The translations under genes were made by a program, and so were the position numbers. This document shows, in pieces, positions 2,984 through 23,699 of a stretch of DNA of 33,225 bases. Numbering within the stretch: the stretch's first letter is position 1; each line of letters begins with the position of its first letter. The stretch is from a virus, in the IMG/VR virus record IMGVR_UViG_3300047564_003753, positions 1 to 33,225 of that record; one strand, 5' to 3'. The notes below the pieces were generated by a model. The model ran no database searches. It was given only the letters and a program-made list of their open reading frames with translations, and was not told the DNA's origin.

Positions 2984-3385
2984 TTATCTATTCGGCAACA
3001 GTACGAATTCTAATTGTTGGGGTTGAACATCTGCACCAATAATTCTGTATATAATTGTAATATCAATTCCATTATTGTCATAGTCTGGAGAAGATATAAC
3101 ATCAATTAATTCAACTCTAGGTTCATAGTTGATAATAGAATTTTCTATTTCATCTTTTATCGATGATGCTGTAATTTCATCGATATTATCAAAAAGTAGT
3201 TTTTTTACTCCGGAACCAAAGATATTATCAAAAAATTTTTCGCCTTGCATCGTAAATACAATATTACGAATAGAACGAGCAATTGCGTTTTCATTTTTCA
3301 ATGCAATAATATCAGAATTAAGTGGATTAATCTGAAAAGACATACTTATGTCTTTAAAACTTTTACTTACTCGTTCTATTGGCAT
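2984..3385 (-). CDS. 25: Baseplate wedge protein gp25 (lysozyme-like fold family)
   Basis: The 133 residues match the gp25 family: an N-terminal F.DISMSFQINPLNSDI segment, NENAIARSIRNIVFTMQGEK (about 30-49) and a C-terminal beta hairpin region with IIYRI. gp25 joins gp6 and gp53 in the baseplate wedge. The order gp25-gp6-structural protein is the usual one in T4-like phages. A T4-type late box, ATAAATA, lies at 3408-3414, 23 nt before the ATG, so this is probably the first gene of a late transcript. Confidence 0.95.
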   Translation of the reverse strand: MPIERVSKSFKDISMSFQINPLNSDIIALKNENAIARSIRNIVFTMQGEKFFDNIFGSGVKKLLFDNIDEITASSIKDEIENSIINYEPRVELIDVISSPDYDNNGIDITIIYRIIGADVQPQQLEFVLLPNR

Positions 3386-8807: not shown

Positions 8808-9320
8808 TCAAGTGAGAGACTGATAGATTGGTCCATACTTTCCAAAAATAGTTTTGAATCGTTCTAGTCTTTTTCCTAGATATACAATCGCAGATTGAAA
8901 TGGTGCTGCACTCTTTCCTTCACCAAACTTCAATCTGCGATTTACTCCAATCCAAGGATAAGAAGATACTGATTTCCACCAAGCAGTTGATACATCTAAC
9001 TTAATGAGAAGTATCATTTCTTGACTATTTCCAGTTTCATATTGTCTTACTGCATAAGGAATCCATTCTTTACTATTACTGTAAGGATGATTCATAAAAA
9101 CTGTTTTTGCAATCCAATCATGTGATAATCCATTTGTACTTTCAGTAAAAACTTGTTTTGCAGGTACATTTGGATTTTGTTCATCATTGGAGCAAGGGTC
9201 TAAATCTAACTCGCCATCAAAGAAAACAATGACATCTTCAACAAATGATTTTGGTGTATTCCAACAATCAGTTTTGTTTCCTGTTGTTGAGGTTAATGCT
9301 TTAAGTGCTGATGATGTCAT
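8808..9320 (-). CDS. dam: Dam-type DNA adenine N6-methyltransferase
   Basis: The 170 residues match the phage N6-adenine methylase family (Dam, PF05869 type). TDCWNTPKSFVEDVIVFF and ELDLDPCSN (about residues 17-45) are the characteristic N-terminal blocks. VFMNHPYS (about 74-81) is the catalytic (N/D)PPY-type motif; the first Pro is replaced by His, which is unusual. These enzymes typically methylate GATC using S-adenosylmethionine. The ATG overlaps the stop of the MutH-like gene by 4 bases, which ties the two together. A restriction-modification role is an inference from that pairing. Confidence 0.9.
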   Translation of the reverse strand: MTSSALKALTSTTGNKTDCWNTPKSFVEDVIVFFDGELDLDPCSNDEQNPNVPAKQVFTESTNGLSHDWIAKTVFMNHPYSNSKEWIPYAVRQYETGNSQEMILLIKLDVSTAWWKSVSSYPWIGVNRRLKFGEGKSAAPFQSAIVYLGKRLERFKTIFGKYGPIYQSLT

Positions 9321-9910
9321 AGAATTGTTTTTCCAAAATTGGCAAGAAGGTAAAATGCCATACCTTTATTTTTAAGATATACTCCATTATAACATATTGG
9401 AGTATATTGTCCATTGCGATTTTTACTTGCTTTTGTGCGAATTTGTAAAAGTTGATTCGGACCGGTAATTGTATTTAACTCTCGACCTTCGGAATATGCA
9501 AGTTTAATTTGTGAGCAAATATAACCATAATCTTCTGCAAGTAGTTTATAATGTTCCGTATTTGTTTTTGTATTGATAGTTATGTTTCCAACATATTCAT
9601 TCTTGCGAGTGAAACCAACATAAATGGTTCTCTCTAACTTTTTACCTACCTTACTTTCATCAAACTCAACTTTCTGTTCGATAATTTCTTCTAAACAATG
9701 TTTGAGTTGAGTTACTGCGATCGTTTCTCCGATAGTATAAGATTTAATCTCCCCATCAATCAAATCATTAAGTTGCGAACTATTTGCAATTCCAAGAGCA
9801 AGTTCAATTAGTTGTCCTCGCTCACCTTTATTTCTTCCTGGTTTTTGAAATTTAGTAAAATCAAAATCATGAAACTTAGTTTCAACTTGAGAAACGGTGA
9901 GTTTATTCAC
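9317..9910 (-). CDS. MutH/Sau3AI-family GATC endonuclease
   Basis: The 197 residues follow the MutH fold pattern. NKGERGQLIELALG (about 27-40) matches the KG..G.LLE..LG block with the catalytic Glu (E36). DLIDGEIKSY (about 49-58) matches the D...E-x-K active site (E54, K56). LQIRTKAS matches the LQIRPKA motif of MutH. NGVYLKNKGMAFYLLA matches the C-terminal G.YLKK block. MutH nicks and Sau3AI cuts unmethylated or hemimethylated GATC. It is shorter than E. coli MutH (229). The start is a GTG without a clear ribosome site, suggesting low expression. The next gene is dam. Confidence 0.85.
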   Translation of the reverse strand: MNKLTVSQVETKFHDFDFTKFQKPGRNKGERGQLIELALGIANSSQLNDLIDGEIKSYTIGETIAVTQLKHCLEEIIEQKVEFDESKVGKKLERTIYVGFTRKNEYVGNITINTKTNTEHYKLLAEDYGYICSQIKLAYSEGRELNTITGPNQLLQIRTKASKNRNGQYTPICYNGVYLKNKGMAFYLLANFGKTIL

Positions 9911-10358: not shown

Positions 10359-10937
10359 TCAACCGAACAGTTTAGCACAAACAGGACCAATTCCCATCTG
10401 TACAGAGAGAGGGTCATTCAGAGTGCGACCACAAATAGAGCAAGAACCAGACTCGTGCCCATAAATCTTTGCCAGTTGCAGGAGATTTTCATTGGCGTCT
10501 TCTAGAAGATTTTTAACATCTTCAGAGACATTACCAATCAAATCACCGTTTTGAGTAATTTTACCAACATACTGGTTGTTTTCAAAAACATAGACACAAC
10601 CGATATTTGCACCCTTATTCACAGTGGAAAGAGTAATACCAGGCAGTCGCACTTGAAACTTAGTCTTGCGATTCTTACCTGCATCATACATTTTCTCCAC
10701 CAGGTCAATATATTCACCTTTCTCAACAGGAGTTTGAGAATCAATCACACTTTGAGTTGCAAGATAGTGCATCCAAGCAATTTGCTTTTCAGACACTTTC
10801 TTCTTCTCAACCAAACTCATTGCAAAGTTATTATAGTTCAGTTTATCTTTGATATATGCTTTTGCATCATTCAGAGACTCAAACTTGCTCTCAAAAGCAA
10901 TCTCTTCGCCTTGCTTTTCAACAATGAAAGAAGTCAT
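10359..10937 (-). CDS. Zinc-ribbon protein (DUF6011-like C-terminus), 192 aa
   Basis: The C-terminus CSICGRTLNDPLSVQMGIGP followed by VCAKLFG is a four-Cys zinc-binding motif (C-x2-C ... G-I-G-P-x-C) of the DUF6011 type, seen in many phage and bacterial proteins of unknown role. The N-terminal half has a helical KKVSEKQIAWMHYLATQSVI segment. It is the first gene of the operon that ends with mutH and dam, and is read from the promoter at 11000-11005 through a leader of about 55 bases. Confidence 0.85.
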   Translation of the reverse strand: MTSFIVEKQGEEIAFESKFESLNDAKAYIKDKLNYNNFAMSLVEKKKVSEKQIAWMHYLATQSVIDSQTPVEKGEYIDLVEKMYDAGKNRKTKFQVRLPGITLSTVNKGANIGCVYVFENNQYVGKITQNGDLIGNVSEDVKNLLEDANENLLQLAKIYGHESGSCSICGRTLNDPLSVQMGIGPVCAKLFG

Positions 10938-11437: not shown

Positions 11438-12046
11438 CTAGATTCCTCTAATTTTTGAAAGAATAGATTCTATTTCATTATCTGTTTTTCCTTGCGATTT
11501 CAAATAACTTTCATATCCGTTTCCAGATTTAATGTGATTTGACAACTCATTTAATTTATCTACATCATCAGAATTAACATAATAGGATCTCCCCATTTTA
11601 ACTCTTTCAATACCAGTAAGATGAATCCAATTACACAGTGTGCTTGCACTTGAGAAACCAAACATAGTTCTAAGATCTTTAGAACTGATTAGGTTTTTAG
11701 TTGAATAAACTTTACTGCAAGTTCTTGGAGTTGTATTTACATTGATACACTTTGAATGATCCTTGAACTTTTTTATGAGAGAAGTTTCACAATAAATCAT
11801 CTCACTTTCGGATGAGAATGTTTTTAGGATCACCTTTTCCCCATCCTCATACCGTTCTTTATCTTTATAAGATCCAATATATTTTGCATCGTTTTCTGGG
11901 ATAGTTTTAGAAATCCTAGATCCGATGTAGAAATTACCATCAAGGAAAAATGTTGCATAAACATAGTAATACTCAACTTGTTTATATTCAGAAGAAATAA
12001 TTTCTGTTTCCTTTAAGATCTCATTTAAGATTTTAATTTGTTCCAT
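11438..12046 (-). CDS. GIY-YIG endonuclease with C-terminal DNA-binding region
   Basis: From the ATG at 12044-12046 the product is 202 aa. YYVYATF and NFYIGSRIS (about residues 27-45) are the GIY and YIG halves. E87 in YCETSLI and N102/N104 in INVNT occupy the metal-ligand Glu and Asn positions. The C-terminal FGFSSASTLCNWIHLTGI looks like a helix-turn-helix recognition segment. The gene is probably a free-standing homing endonuclease. It has six GATC sites in about 600 bp while its neighbours have almost none, which indicates recent arrival. It follows a terminator and has no promoter of its own that I can see. Confidence 0.85.
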   Translation of the reverse strand: MEQIKILNEILKETEIISSEYKQVEYYYVYATFFLDGNFYIGSRISKTIPENDAKYIGSYKDKERYEDGEKVILKTFSSESEMIYCETSLIKKFKDHSKCINVNTTPRTCSKVYSTKNLISSKDLRTMFGFSSASTLCNWIHLTGIERVKMGRSYYVNSDDVDKLNELSNHIKSGNGYESYLKSQGKTDNEIESILSKIRGI

Positions 12047-12060
12047 AGAAAGAATAAAGG

Positions 12061-12089
12061 AAAAGAAAGGGGTGATTAACTCACACCCC
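12061..12089 (-). terminator. Rho-independent terminator after the DUF2786 gene
   Basis: GGGGTG...CACCCC with a 9-base loop is followed by TTTCTTTT on the minus strand. The stem overlaps the stop codon of the DUF2786 gene. Confidence 0.7.
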
Positions 12090-12755
12090 ACAGAGTTGTT
12101 TGGTCACAGAACCAGATGCTTGACGGTTCAAAGAAACACCAGCACCTACGTTTGCGCCAGAATAAGCACCAGCACCGTTTGCACCATTCATCTTCTTAGC
12201 GCGTCCAAATCGCATTGTGGAGAGTTTATTACTCACTGCCTCGGCATCATCATGAACTCGGTTCTCTGCGAGTTTCATTTCCCGCAGACGTTCTGCAACT
12301 TTATCTGCAAATGCCTTGCGGAAGTTAAGTTTGAAAGAACGGGAAACAGAATCGCCGCGCAGAGAGCAAAGGATTTTCTCTGCTTTATGTGCAACTTCTG
12401 CCTCTTTCTCCATCACCTGCACCAGGTAATCATAATAGAGTCGCACTTGGATTTGTTGTGCTTCACTACCAATGATTTGCAGAGACTTGGAATCTCCATT
12501 CTTCAGGTATGCTTTTGCATCATAGAACGTTGCAATCGCATTTGCAAGAGTAGTCAATGCAACATTGATTCTCTTGAAAGAAACAAACTCTTCATCAAGA
12601 ACTTGAGTTTCAGTTGCTTCAGAGATAGTTACACCATACTGCTTGCACAGTTTGTCAATCATTGCCGCAGCAGCAGATGCTTCACCCTCAAAGTCAGTAC
12701 CATTCTGCAGTTTCAGAATGGATTGAATCTTTGCGATAACTTGCGAACGATCCAT
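12081..12755 (-). CDS. DUF2786-type protein, 224 aa
   Basis: The start at 12753-12755 (MDRSQVIAKIQSILKLQNGT) is chosen because the longer frame would run through the promoter. The N-terminal 45 residues, including EGEASAAAAMIDKLCKQYGV, match the DUF2786 domain, whose function is unknown. A long helical middle (about 100-170) and a Gly/Ala-rich tail (NGANGAGAYSGANVGAG) follow. The SRSFKLNFRKAFADKVAERL segment is basic and could bind nucleic acid. Transcription is from 12808 with the conserved leader. Confidence 0.85.
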   Translation of the reverse strand: MDRSQVIAKIQSILKLQNGTDFEGEASAAAAMIDKLCKQYGVTISEATETQVLDEEFVSFKRINVALTTLANAIATFYDAKAYLKNGDSKSLQIIGSEAQQIQVRLYYDYLVQVMEKEAEVAHKAEKILCSLRGDSVSRSFKLNFRKAFADKVAERLREMKLAENRVHDDAEAVSNKLSTMRFGRAKKMNGANGAGAYSGANVGAGVSLNRQASGSVTKQLCGV

Positions 12756-13641: not shown

Positions 13642-13666
13642 TGAAGTCAAGAATAAAGGAATAGAG

Positions 13667-13738
13667 TAGCAATGGGTGGAATCGAACCACCGACATAGAG
13701 GGTATGAATCTCTTGTTCTACCACTGAACTACATTGCC
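13667..13738 (-). tRNA. tRNA with CAU anticodon (Met or Ile2)
   Basis: The minus strand folds into a full cloverleaf of 72 nt. The acceptor is GGCAATG/CATTGCT (one G-U pair). The D stem is GTTC/GAAC. The anticodon loop TTCATAC has CAT and one A-C mismatch closing the stem. The T arm is GGTGG-TTCGATT-CCACC. CCA is not encoded. A CAU anticodon may be initiator or elongator Met, or Ile if the first base is modified to lysidine; the sequence alone does not settle this. Confidence 0.9.
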
Positions 13739-19884: not shown

Positions 19885-19890
19885 ATCATA
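19885..19890 (-). promoter_or_regulatory. Extended -10 promoter with perfect GATTAC palindrome
   Basis: The minus strand reads CGTGC-TATGAT-TACGG. The next bases complete GATTAC-GGA-GTAATC, a perfect 6+6 palindrome overlapping the -10. The promoter lies inside the 3' end of the GIY-YIG gene, 3' of its last codons. Confidence 0.75.
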
Positions 19891-20593
19891 GCACGGCAGA
19901 AGGGTCTTTGGGGGGTGTTATGGACGGTTCAGAAATTGGCACTTGGGATACATCTTCTTTTTTAATTGCTATAATATCTTTATATTTTTTAATTTCACCT
20001 TTCAATAAACGTTTTATGCCAGTGTAGTTGTATTTTCCATTATCTCTACACCATTTTCTTATTCCAAAAATAGTAATTTGACTACTATCAGCAAAAGTTA
20101 TTATAAATGAAATTTTGATTGCTTTTATATTCGAATTACTTATTTTTGTTCTTGTTTCTTTATTCATAGTGCATCTATTTTTTGCTGATATACTCATTTT
20201 TTTCCTTGAGTCTTCACTCATAACTTTTCCTCTATGTGCATCTCCTATTTTTTTCTTTGTTATTTCATTATGCTTTCTTTCTTTGCCAATAATACTTAAT
20301 TTTTTTCTAGTATTTACATTAGTGATACATCCACTTTTCCCCTCCCCTCCATTAGTTTTATTCCTCAATATACCAGTTCCTAAATCTTTTCTACCGAAGA
20401 CCGCAATCATATAGATTTCGTGTCTAAATGCTTCTTCTTCGGTTAAGTTTTGCTTGAGAATTATAACTCTTGATTTGTCTTTTGGTGGATTAACTTCCCC
20501 CTTATACTTTCTATGTGCCCTATCACCTTTGCCTTTTCCTATGTAATAGGGTGTTCCATCTTCCCGCAAATATGCGTAAGTATAGTATTGCAT
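19886..20593 (-). CDS. GIY-YIG homing endonuclease with NUMOD3-type repeats
   Basis: The 235-aa protein has YTYAYL and PYYIGKGKGDRAHRK (4-29) as the nuclease core, E59 in FRHEIYMI as metal ligand and N81 in NKTNGGEGKSG. Two or three NUMOD3-type DNA-binding repeats follow (KKKIGDAHRGKVMSEDSRKK, MSISAKNRC). The C-terminal half, with TIFGIRKWCRDNGKYN, looks like an IENR1-type helix module. The final 15 residues (EPSITPPKDPSAVL) are encoded by the neighbouring promoter module. A T4-like late box precedes the start, unlike the surrounding early genes. Confidence 0.9.
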   Translation of the reverse strand: MQYYTYAYLREDGTPYYIGKGKGDRAHRKYKGEVNPPKDKSRVIILKQNLTEEEAFRHEIYMIAVFGRKDLGTGILRNKTNGGEGKSGCITNVNTRKKLSIIGKERKHNEITKKKIGDAHRGKVMSEDSRKKMSISAKNRCTMNKETRTKISNSNIKAIKISFIITFADSSQITIFGIRKWCRDNGKYNYTGIKRLLKGEIKKYKDIIAIKKEDVSQVPISEPSITPPKDPSAVL

Positions 20594-22883: not shown

Positions 22884-22898
22884 AATAATGAAGTAAAA

Positions 22899-22972
22899 CA
22901 GGCACGGAGGGACTCGAACCCCCGACAAACCGATTAGAAGTCGGATACTCTATCCATCTGAGTTACGTGCCC
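22899..22972 (-). tRNA. tRNA-Arg(UCU)
   Basis: The 74-nt cloverleaf has acceptor GGGCACG/CGTGCCT, anticodon loop CTTCTAA with TCT, and T arm GGGGG-TTCGAGT-CCCTC (one mismatch). UCU-type tRNA-Arg is a common phage tRNA. CCA is not encoded. Confidence 0.95.
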
Positions 22973-23059
22973 ATAAGAGACCCTCCTGTTTGTGCATTGT
23001 TAAGAGGCATGGAGGGGGTGGGACTTACTTAAAGTTTGGACTTTTAATGCCCGTAGAAA

Positions 23060-23572: not shown

Positions 23573-23613
23573 ATACAAATAGTAATGGACTATTTGGGAA
23601 TTATTATTCCCAA

Positions 23614-23685
23614 TGGAGTGTAAGGAAATCGAATCCTTATTGCTGGAATGCAAATCCAGAGTAATAACCGTTATACGAACACCCC
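23614..23685 (-). tRNA. tRNA-Ala(UGC)
   Basis: The 72-nt fold has acceptor GGGGTGT/ACACTCC (one G-U pair), anticodon stem CTGGA/TCCAG with loop TTTGCAT (TGC), and T arm AAGGA-TTCGATT-TCCTT. CCA is not encoded. A hairpin with a 10-bp stem lies 14 bases upstream. Confidence 0.9.
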
Positions 23686-23699
23686 AGAACAGTTTATAT

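Follow-up and report, generated by a model that had tools for sequence, protein, structure and literature searches.

A candidate GATC restriction-modification module with exchangeable nucleases and methylases in T4-like cyanophages

MutH, the γ-proteobacterial, m6A-sensitive repair endonuclease for GATC, is a weak monomeric nickase that depends on MutL, and the monomeric enzymes BcnI and MvaI (PF15515), whose known recognition sites are not GATC, nick the strands one after another. The type II GATC enzyme Sau3AI carries another MutH-like domain besides its catalytic one, and cytosine methylation prevents its action (PMC4390886). Virus-encoded GATC systems are also known, namely CviAI of a chlorovirus and mel_015/mel_016 of a marseillevirus (PMC7253447). 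As in the phage module described here, where the nuclease specificity is predicted, a viral GATC adenine methylase adjoins a GATC nuclease in these systems and their occurrence is patchy; they belong to giant viruses of eukaryotes, whereas the phage module is carried by lytic T4-like cyanophages and has interchangeable nucleases and methylases. T4 Dam and the orphan Dams of phages are members of the same families as the methylases of the module (PF02086 and PF05869), but the cyanophage Dams are consistently found with a nuclease. A search of the open-licence literature returned no description of the pair, of the exchange of its parts or of a GATC scar in cyanophages. The methylase neighbours of the nuclease are already annotated in GenBank, where one record names the nuclease gene MutH.

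The stretch of DNA analysed here (the window) is a 33-kb fragment (33,225 nt) of a T4-like cyanophage, with gp6 and baseplate genes at 1–3 kb and gp25 at 2984–3385. Two overlapping open reading frames that had been singled out in a sequence-only reading are both present: the gene for a 197-aa MutH/Sau3AI-fold nuclease with a GTG start (9317–9910, minus strand; phrog_15364) and the gene for a 170-aa Dam-type adenine methylase with an ATG start (8808–9320, minus strand; PF05869). Their 4-nt overlap, ATGA (9317–9320, minus strand), contains the stop codon of the nuclease and the start codon of the methylase, and likely couples the translation of the two. An identical overlap between the nuclease and a PF05869 Dam occurs in L018, L020, L023, L024, L034, L064 and others. 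The suggestion that the GTG start and the weak ribosome-binding site tune expression low is not supported by comparison with relatives: the closest use ATG, several related starts have no obvious Shine-Dalgarno sequence, and because related starts vary in this way the features say little. A promoter and terminator scan of the window from 8.5 to 11 kb gave no excess over shuffled sequences.

Other genes in the window include one for a 192-aa protein (10359–10937, minus strand) with a C-terminal DUF6011 zinc-ribbon-like domain (GSCSICGRTLNDPLSVQMGIGPVCAKLFG), which lies near the module both here and in L002. A 217-aa protein (11438–12091, minus strand) has weak GIY-YIG/homing-endonuclease similarity (phrog_314, E = 1e-6), and a 235-aa protein (19886–20593, minus strand) with a sub-threshold NUMOD3 motif is possibly another homing endonuclease. 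Three tRNA genes, for Met (13666–13738), Arg (22898–22973) and Ala (23613–23686), are all on the minus strand.

The 197-aa protein has no Pfam match and is assigned at 279 bits to phrog_15364, a family of 'unknown function' that we found in at least 153 viral contigs. The blocks that had suggested MutH/Sau3AI (KG..GQL.E, D...GE-I-K, LQIRTKA and FYL) align end to end with E. coli MutH, and we do not attribute them to chance because of the number of contigs, the invariance of residues in 32 members and a dN/dS of 0.05–0.19. A comparison of the family with E. coli MutH by hhalign aligned columns 25–194 with 45–219 (probability 93.7, P = 1.8e-7). Read from this alignment, K48-G49, E56, D70, E77, K79, K116, R184, K186 and Y212 of MutH correspond to K28-G29, E36, D49, E54, K56, K91, R158, K160 and Y187 of the nuclease. 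E36, D49, E54, K56, K91, R158, K160 and K182 are invariant across 32 diverse family members, as are K28-G29 and Y187. The catalytic E, D...ExK set of the MutH/Sau3AI superfamily is therein represented by E36 (codon at 9803–9805, minus strand; aligned with MutH E56), D49 (9764–9766, minus strand; aligned with the catalytic D70) and E54-I-K56 (9743–9751, minus strand; aligned with the catalytic E77-x-K79). An active site of E36/E54/K56, as proposed earlier, is invariant and MutH-aligned but incomplete, as D49 also belongs to it. The tyrosine Y178 of the proposed 'G.YLK' block gives way to Y187 (9350–9352, minus strand), which is the residue that aligns with MutH Tyr212, tied to adenine-methylation sensing (PMC3848065).

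Family profiles and fold comparison placed the protein at different distances from MutH. The Pfam model PF02976 (MutH) found no match in the nuclease members scanned or in 11 whole phage records, and in this respect the expected profile assignment failed, whereas the NCBIfam MutH models matched the nuclease end to end (E = 9e-10), in agreement with hhalign. These matches fall short of the MutH equivalog cut-offs (30 bits against 230 for TIGR02248, 38 bits against 243 for NF003458). It was profile-profile and fold comparison that revealed the relationship where PF02976 failed. An AF2 model built from the 32-member alignment (pLDDT 89, pTM 0.84) has the predicted MutH/Sau3AI fold; Foldseek ranks MutH structures at the top (E = 3e-7) with Sau3AI next, and VIA-align gives Z = 14.8 for MutH (182 aa, 2.9 Å), 12.9 for the Sau3AI N-domain, 10.7 for Sau3AI-C and 7.3–7.4 for MvaI/BcnI, the next family. 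The model thus assigns the 197-aa protein to MutH/Sau3AI by fold and not by family threshold. With 38 bits against an equivalog cut-off of 243 and about 23% identity, the protein is best regarded as a MutH homologue and not a MutH orthologue.

The likeness to MutH extends over the whole-protein fold, the order of the catalytic and the GATC/methyl-sensing residues and the single domain; the phage module comes without MutL or MutS, and a lytic phage encodes the nuclease next to a methylase of its own. With Sau3AI the nuclease shares the fold of the N-terminal catalytic domain and the role of a methylase partner, but it is a single 197-aa domain (family consensus about 195 columns) from which the second MutH-like domain of Sau3AI is absent. 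As Sau3AI is blocked by cytosine methylation, an adenine methylase as partner fits the MutH-like methyl-sensing side and not Sau3AI proper. The MutH-matched residues, including the Tyr212 equivalent, make an m6A-sensitive GATC nuclease the natural prediction.

We also considered an MvaI/BcnI identity and rejected it, since the best family member scored 23.3 bits (E = 7.6e-5) against the PF15515 cut-off of 25 and the fold match is much weaker than that to MutH (Z = 7.4 against 14.8). Weak matches below the cut-off occur in 27 of the 32 family members; the window protein has none. The related fold (Z about 7.3) offers a model for sequential nicking by one domain: by analogy with BcnI/MvaI, one MutH domain may nick first one strand and then the other, or the enzyme may only nick. 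Two further candidates were discarded. A scan of GTDB contigs for a bacterial origin of the nuclease gave one match, a short MAG contig (L120) with no linked methylase that is probably a binned phage contig, and an apparent nuclease remnant with stops in phage Syn19 (E = 2.9e-5) is antisense to a structural gene and was judged to be chance.

The methylase matches PF05869 at 67.3 bits (cut-off 28.1), which bears out its earlier reading as a Dam, and belongs to phrog_111 (DNA methyltransferase). Its motif IV (residues 77–81; 9078–9092, minus strand) reads NHPYS where (D/N)PPY is canonical, and the motif distinguishes the window clade from T4 and orphan Dams. The sequence-only reading was right about the motif: NHPYS is invariant in 20 relatives and, as judged from the alignment, is a fixed signature of this PF05869 Dam clade, not a defect of the window copy. 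A second, unrelated Dam partner of the nuclease is of the D12 class (PF02086), with TIGR00571 above cut-off.

A search of whole records revealed a D12 or PF05869 adenine methylase in 29 of 30 nuclease-bearing records, including 8/8 isolate genomes and 5/5 contigs longer than 200 kb; the sole record with neither is a 44-kb fragment. In about 25 loci the D12-class Dam is near the nuclease, on either its upstream or its downstream side. None of the 30 records combines a strong Dam-type D12 (about 200 bits) with PF05869, and the best nuclease tree requires at least three changes of methylase partner (bootstrap range 3–3; the starred branches alone force only one). In S-8S29 (L010, 2110–3588) the D12 Dam and the nuclease share a single open frame of 493 codons, and the former spacer between them has no stop codons; this is a putative fusion, with sequencing error possible. 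A 166-aa CxxCxxCC protein downstream in S-IOM18-type loci was not counted as a module member, since it does not belong to the module in other phages. In six freshwater loci (L003, L005, L006, L134, L139, L152), either nuclease is close to one and the same conserved gene (about 300 aa; MKNTHLEHPEDSILTGDLSVLDWFVNPGHLSVKIDGAPAIVWG..., by eye resembling an RNA ligase), and some of these contigs have a D12 Dam elsewhere. We take this gene to mark another insertion site that the two nucleases share in freshwater phages.

S-RIM50, S-RIM12, ACG-2014b and ACG-2014g carry a D12-Dam and no MutH-like gene. Between their Dam and helicase genes lies one for a 144-aa protein that matches PF20472 (PDDEXK_11) above cut-off (E = 1e-10 to 1e-11; phrog_6124). 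The model of this second nuclease has a PD-(D/E)XK fold (pLDDT 88), and its best PDB matches include the type II restriction enzymes BstEII, PspGI and BglII (Z = 7.9–9.6). Profile comparison of the PF20472 nuclease with the MutH-like family detected no relationship (probability 0.4). Between S-RIM8 and S-RIM50 the nuclease has been cleanly replaced: their DNA is 95.5% identical in the Dam segment and 97.2% identical in the helicase segment, and the intervening nuclease is unrelated. Relatives of PF20472 are also coupled to a window-type PF05869 Dam (L097, L102, L104, L105, L108), and therefore all four combinations of methylase and nuclease (4/4) exist. Two short T7-like marine contigs (L113, 96–521; L114, 2634–3065) couple a close relative of the window Dam to yet another nuclease, a distant PD-(D/E)XK-like protein (EPDAITDKYVLEFKYQ), and show no GATC depletion (O/E 0.94–1.02).

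GenBank Synechococcus and 'Cyanophage' records include 64 with a D12-Dam, of which 25 have the MutH-like nuclease and 39 the PF20472 nuclease, none both and none neither. At least 434 records of this kind carry gp6, so the Dam is not simply universal. By these counts (64 = 25 + 39; 29/30), methylase and nuclease genes are linked and co-inherited, as in type II restriction-modification.

The exchange of nucleases bears on two other explanations of the pair. A MutH-like nickase could serve strand discrimination in mismatch repair, acting with host MutL and MutS at hemimethylated phage GATC sites; the homology to MutH with its methyl-sensing tyrosine kept, the GenBank record that says MutH, and the universal presence of MutS and MutL in cyanobacteria, where MutH is absent (PMC4390886), would agree with such a role. 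However, the same locus elsewhere holds an unrelated PD-(D/E)XK nuclease for which MutL binding is not expected, and mismatch repair needs GATC sites, yet purging has left 2 of them in 20 kb of the window. The exchange for an unrelated nuclease and the ongoing loss of GATC make MutH-type mismatch repair very unlikely, and the MutL-free repair or nicking step raised in the sequence-only reading fares no better against a restriction-type nuclease at the same locus and purged GATC. Alternatively, the pair could be a selfish, addiction-like cassette in which a phage that lost the methylase would have its DNA attacked by the nuclease and any effect on the host is incidental. Cassette exchange, coupling by overlap or fusion, and the self-damage indicated by GATC depletion are all in keeping with this, but purifying selection on the nucleases is strong, they are replaced instead of simply lost, and we saw no intact D12-Dam phages without a nuclease; we regard such a cassette as quite unlikely.

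To quantify GATC depletion we used a second-order Markov expectation on samples of 33–50 kb from 13 carriers of either nuclease and 7 non-carriers. With controls of our own choosing and related phages that are not independent, observed/expected (O/E) ratios were 0.19–0.76 (median 0.29) in carriers and 0.78–0.96 (median 0.87) in non-carriers, ranges that are disjoint; collapsed to lineages (8 versus 7), the exact two-sided p is about 3e-4. GATC is the sole carrier-specific depletion among the 16 four-base palindromes, and GTAC shifts mildly in the opposite direction. Depletion is weak in three carriers (S-CAM7, 0.72; G018, 0.76; S-RIM12, 0.61). Across 80 metagenomic loci chosen by gp6 alone, GATC O/E is centred near 0.77, and the four that lie on known nuclease contigs are all among the lowest 12. 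The whole window has 32 GATC sites against 146 expected. Its right 20 kb (12801–33225) is purged, with 2 sites against 88 expected, whereas the left 12.8 kb, which carries structural genes, is half-depleted (30 against 59); this unevenness suggests a mosaic whose left part was more recently acquired or is subject to different constraints. Many marine T4-like cyanophages (L163–L165, L168–L170) have hardly any CCGG (O/E 0–0.03), whether or not they carry the module, as if other restriction pressure acts on them.

Three phages with the same recorded host strain, WH7803, differ in GATC O/E: S-PM2, which has no module, is at 0.96, and the module carriers S-RIM8 and S-IOM18 are at 0.21 and 0.37, so the recorded host does not explain the depletion. 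This difference weighs against the view that Dam only shields the phage from a host GATC enzyme, with hosts selecting for GATC loss and the nuclease serving independently in recombination or repair. Dam-like genes are widespread in phages and GATC is avoided by 46/46 phages of hosts with GATC enzymes (PMC6286503), as that view would have it, but predicted cyanobacterial GATC restriction enzymes turned up only in groups A and B and not in picocyanobacteria (PMC4390886), and it leaves unexplained why D12-Dam always has exactly one of two unrelated nucleases. We therefore consider anti-restriction as the only function unlikely. Every D12-Dam isolate also has a nuclease, so the GATC scar is not formally assignable to the nuclease rather than the methylase. 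The PF05869 loci with no adjacent nuclease (L099–L101, L106, L107, L109–L112) were dropped as 'orphan Dam' controls, being partial genomes on contigs of 4–36 kb; they are GATC-poor as well.

The MutH-matched residues, the Dam families and the GATC depletion agree with GATC as the candidate shared site. We consider it quite probable that nuclease and methylase form a compact, phage-encoded, GATC-specific restriction-modification module, and some ocean and lake cyanobacterial viruses appear to carry a GATC mark-and-cut pair of their own. The computational support for this lies in fold and residues, gene pairing, exchange of nucleases and methylases, and GATC depletion that tracks the module. Counting against it are the MutH scores below cut-off, the weak MvaI/BcnI matches, the noncanonical motif IV of the Dam, the chance that a single-domain enzyme may only nick, and GATC depletion that is weak in three carriers and absent from L113 and L114. 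The restriction-modification or self/non-self role offered in the sequence-only reading is thereby well supported, with the mutual exclusivity of the two nucleases as a further argument. The module is probably active, because its parts are swapped for unrelated ones and GATC is purged from carrier genomes.

What follows on cleavage, on GATC as the site of both enzymes, on protection by methylation and on the in vivo target is our inference. The Dam-type methylase would place N6-methyl-adenine on the phage's own GATC sites, and the single-domain MutH/Sau3AI-fold nuclease would nick or cut GATC lacking this mark. Within an infected picocyanobacterium the host chromosome would be the obvious unprotected target, its destruction providing nucleotides and host shut-off, and rival phage DNA without the GATC mark would be attacked as well. 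Newly replicated phage DNA would be briefly unmarked, and for this reason carriers would bear a cost and their GATC sites would gradually disappear.

Picocyanobacteria do not have the GATC methylase dmtA (PMC4390886), so the marine Synechococcus chromosome would be unmarked, which makes host DNA breakdown our first choice of target and rival phages the second. Judged from sequence, the nuclease most likely cuts unmethylated host (and rival) DNA. The marseillevirus precedent, by analogy, speaks against host breakdown, as host DNA is not degraded during infection despite the GATC pair (PMC7253447), and the unavoided GATC of same-host non-carriers speaks against strong phage warfare. If, as proposed for marseilleviruses, the pair mainly destroys the DNA of co- or superinfecting phages that lack the GATC mark and leaves the host chromosome largely or wholly untouched, then the intact marseillevirus host DNA and the unmethylated, susceptible DNA of a related virus without the pair (PMC7253447) would be matched, and the patchy distribution and module exchange among cyanophages would fit an arms race. 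Non-carriers on the same host should then avoid GATC, yet S-PM2 (WH7803; O/E 0.96) and syn9 (0.95) do not, and we hold this competitive role to be possible but doubtful. Our fullest reading of the host-directed module is that T4-like cyanophages of several genera wield a GATC weapon of interchangeable parts, with either of two Dams and either of two nucleases chosen by specificity and not by ancestry, which destroys the unmethylated picocyanobacterial chromosome and leaves a GATC scar. We put this forward tentatively, at somewhat below an even chance.

The module yields a predicted function for two phage families of 'unknown function' (phrog_15364 and phrog_6124) and a predicted GATC specificity for an uncharacterised nuclease family (the PF20472 branch), and is testable on the existing isolates S-RIM8, S-RIM50 and S-IOM18. 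It also presents a viral genome that its own restriction system seems to have scarred. For phages without the modified cytosine of T4, a GATC mark-and-cut module would offer a simple account of how cyanophages of one class, abundant in marine and fresh waters, break down the host chromosome and distinguish their own DNA from that of the host.
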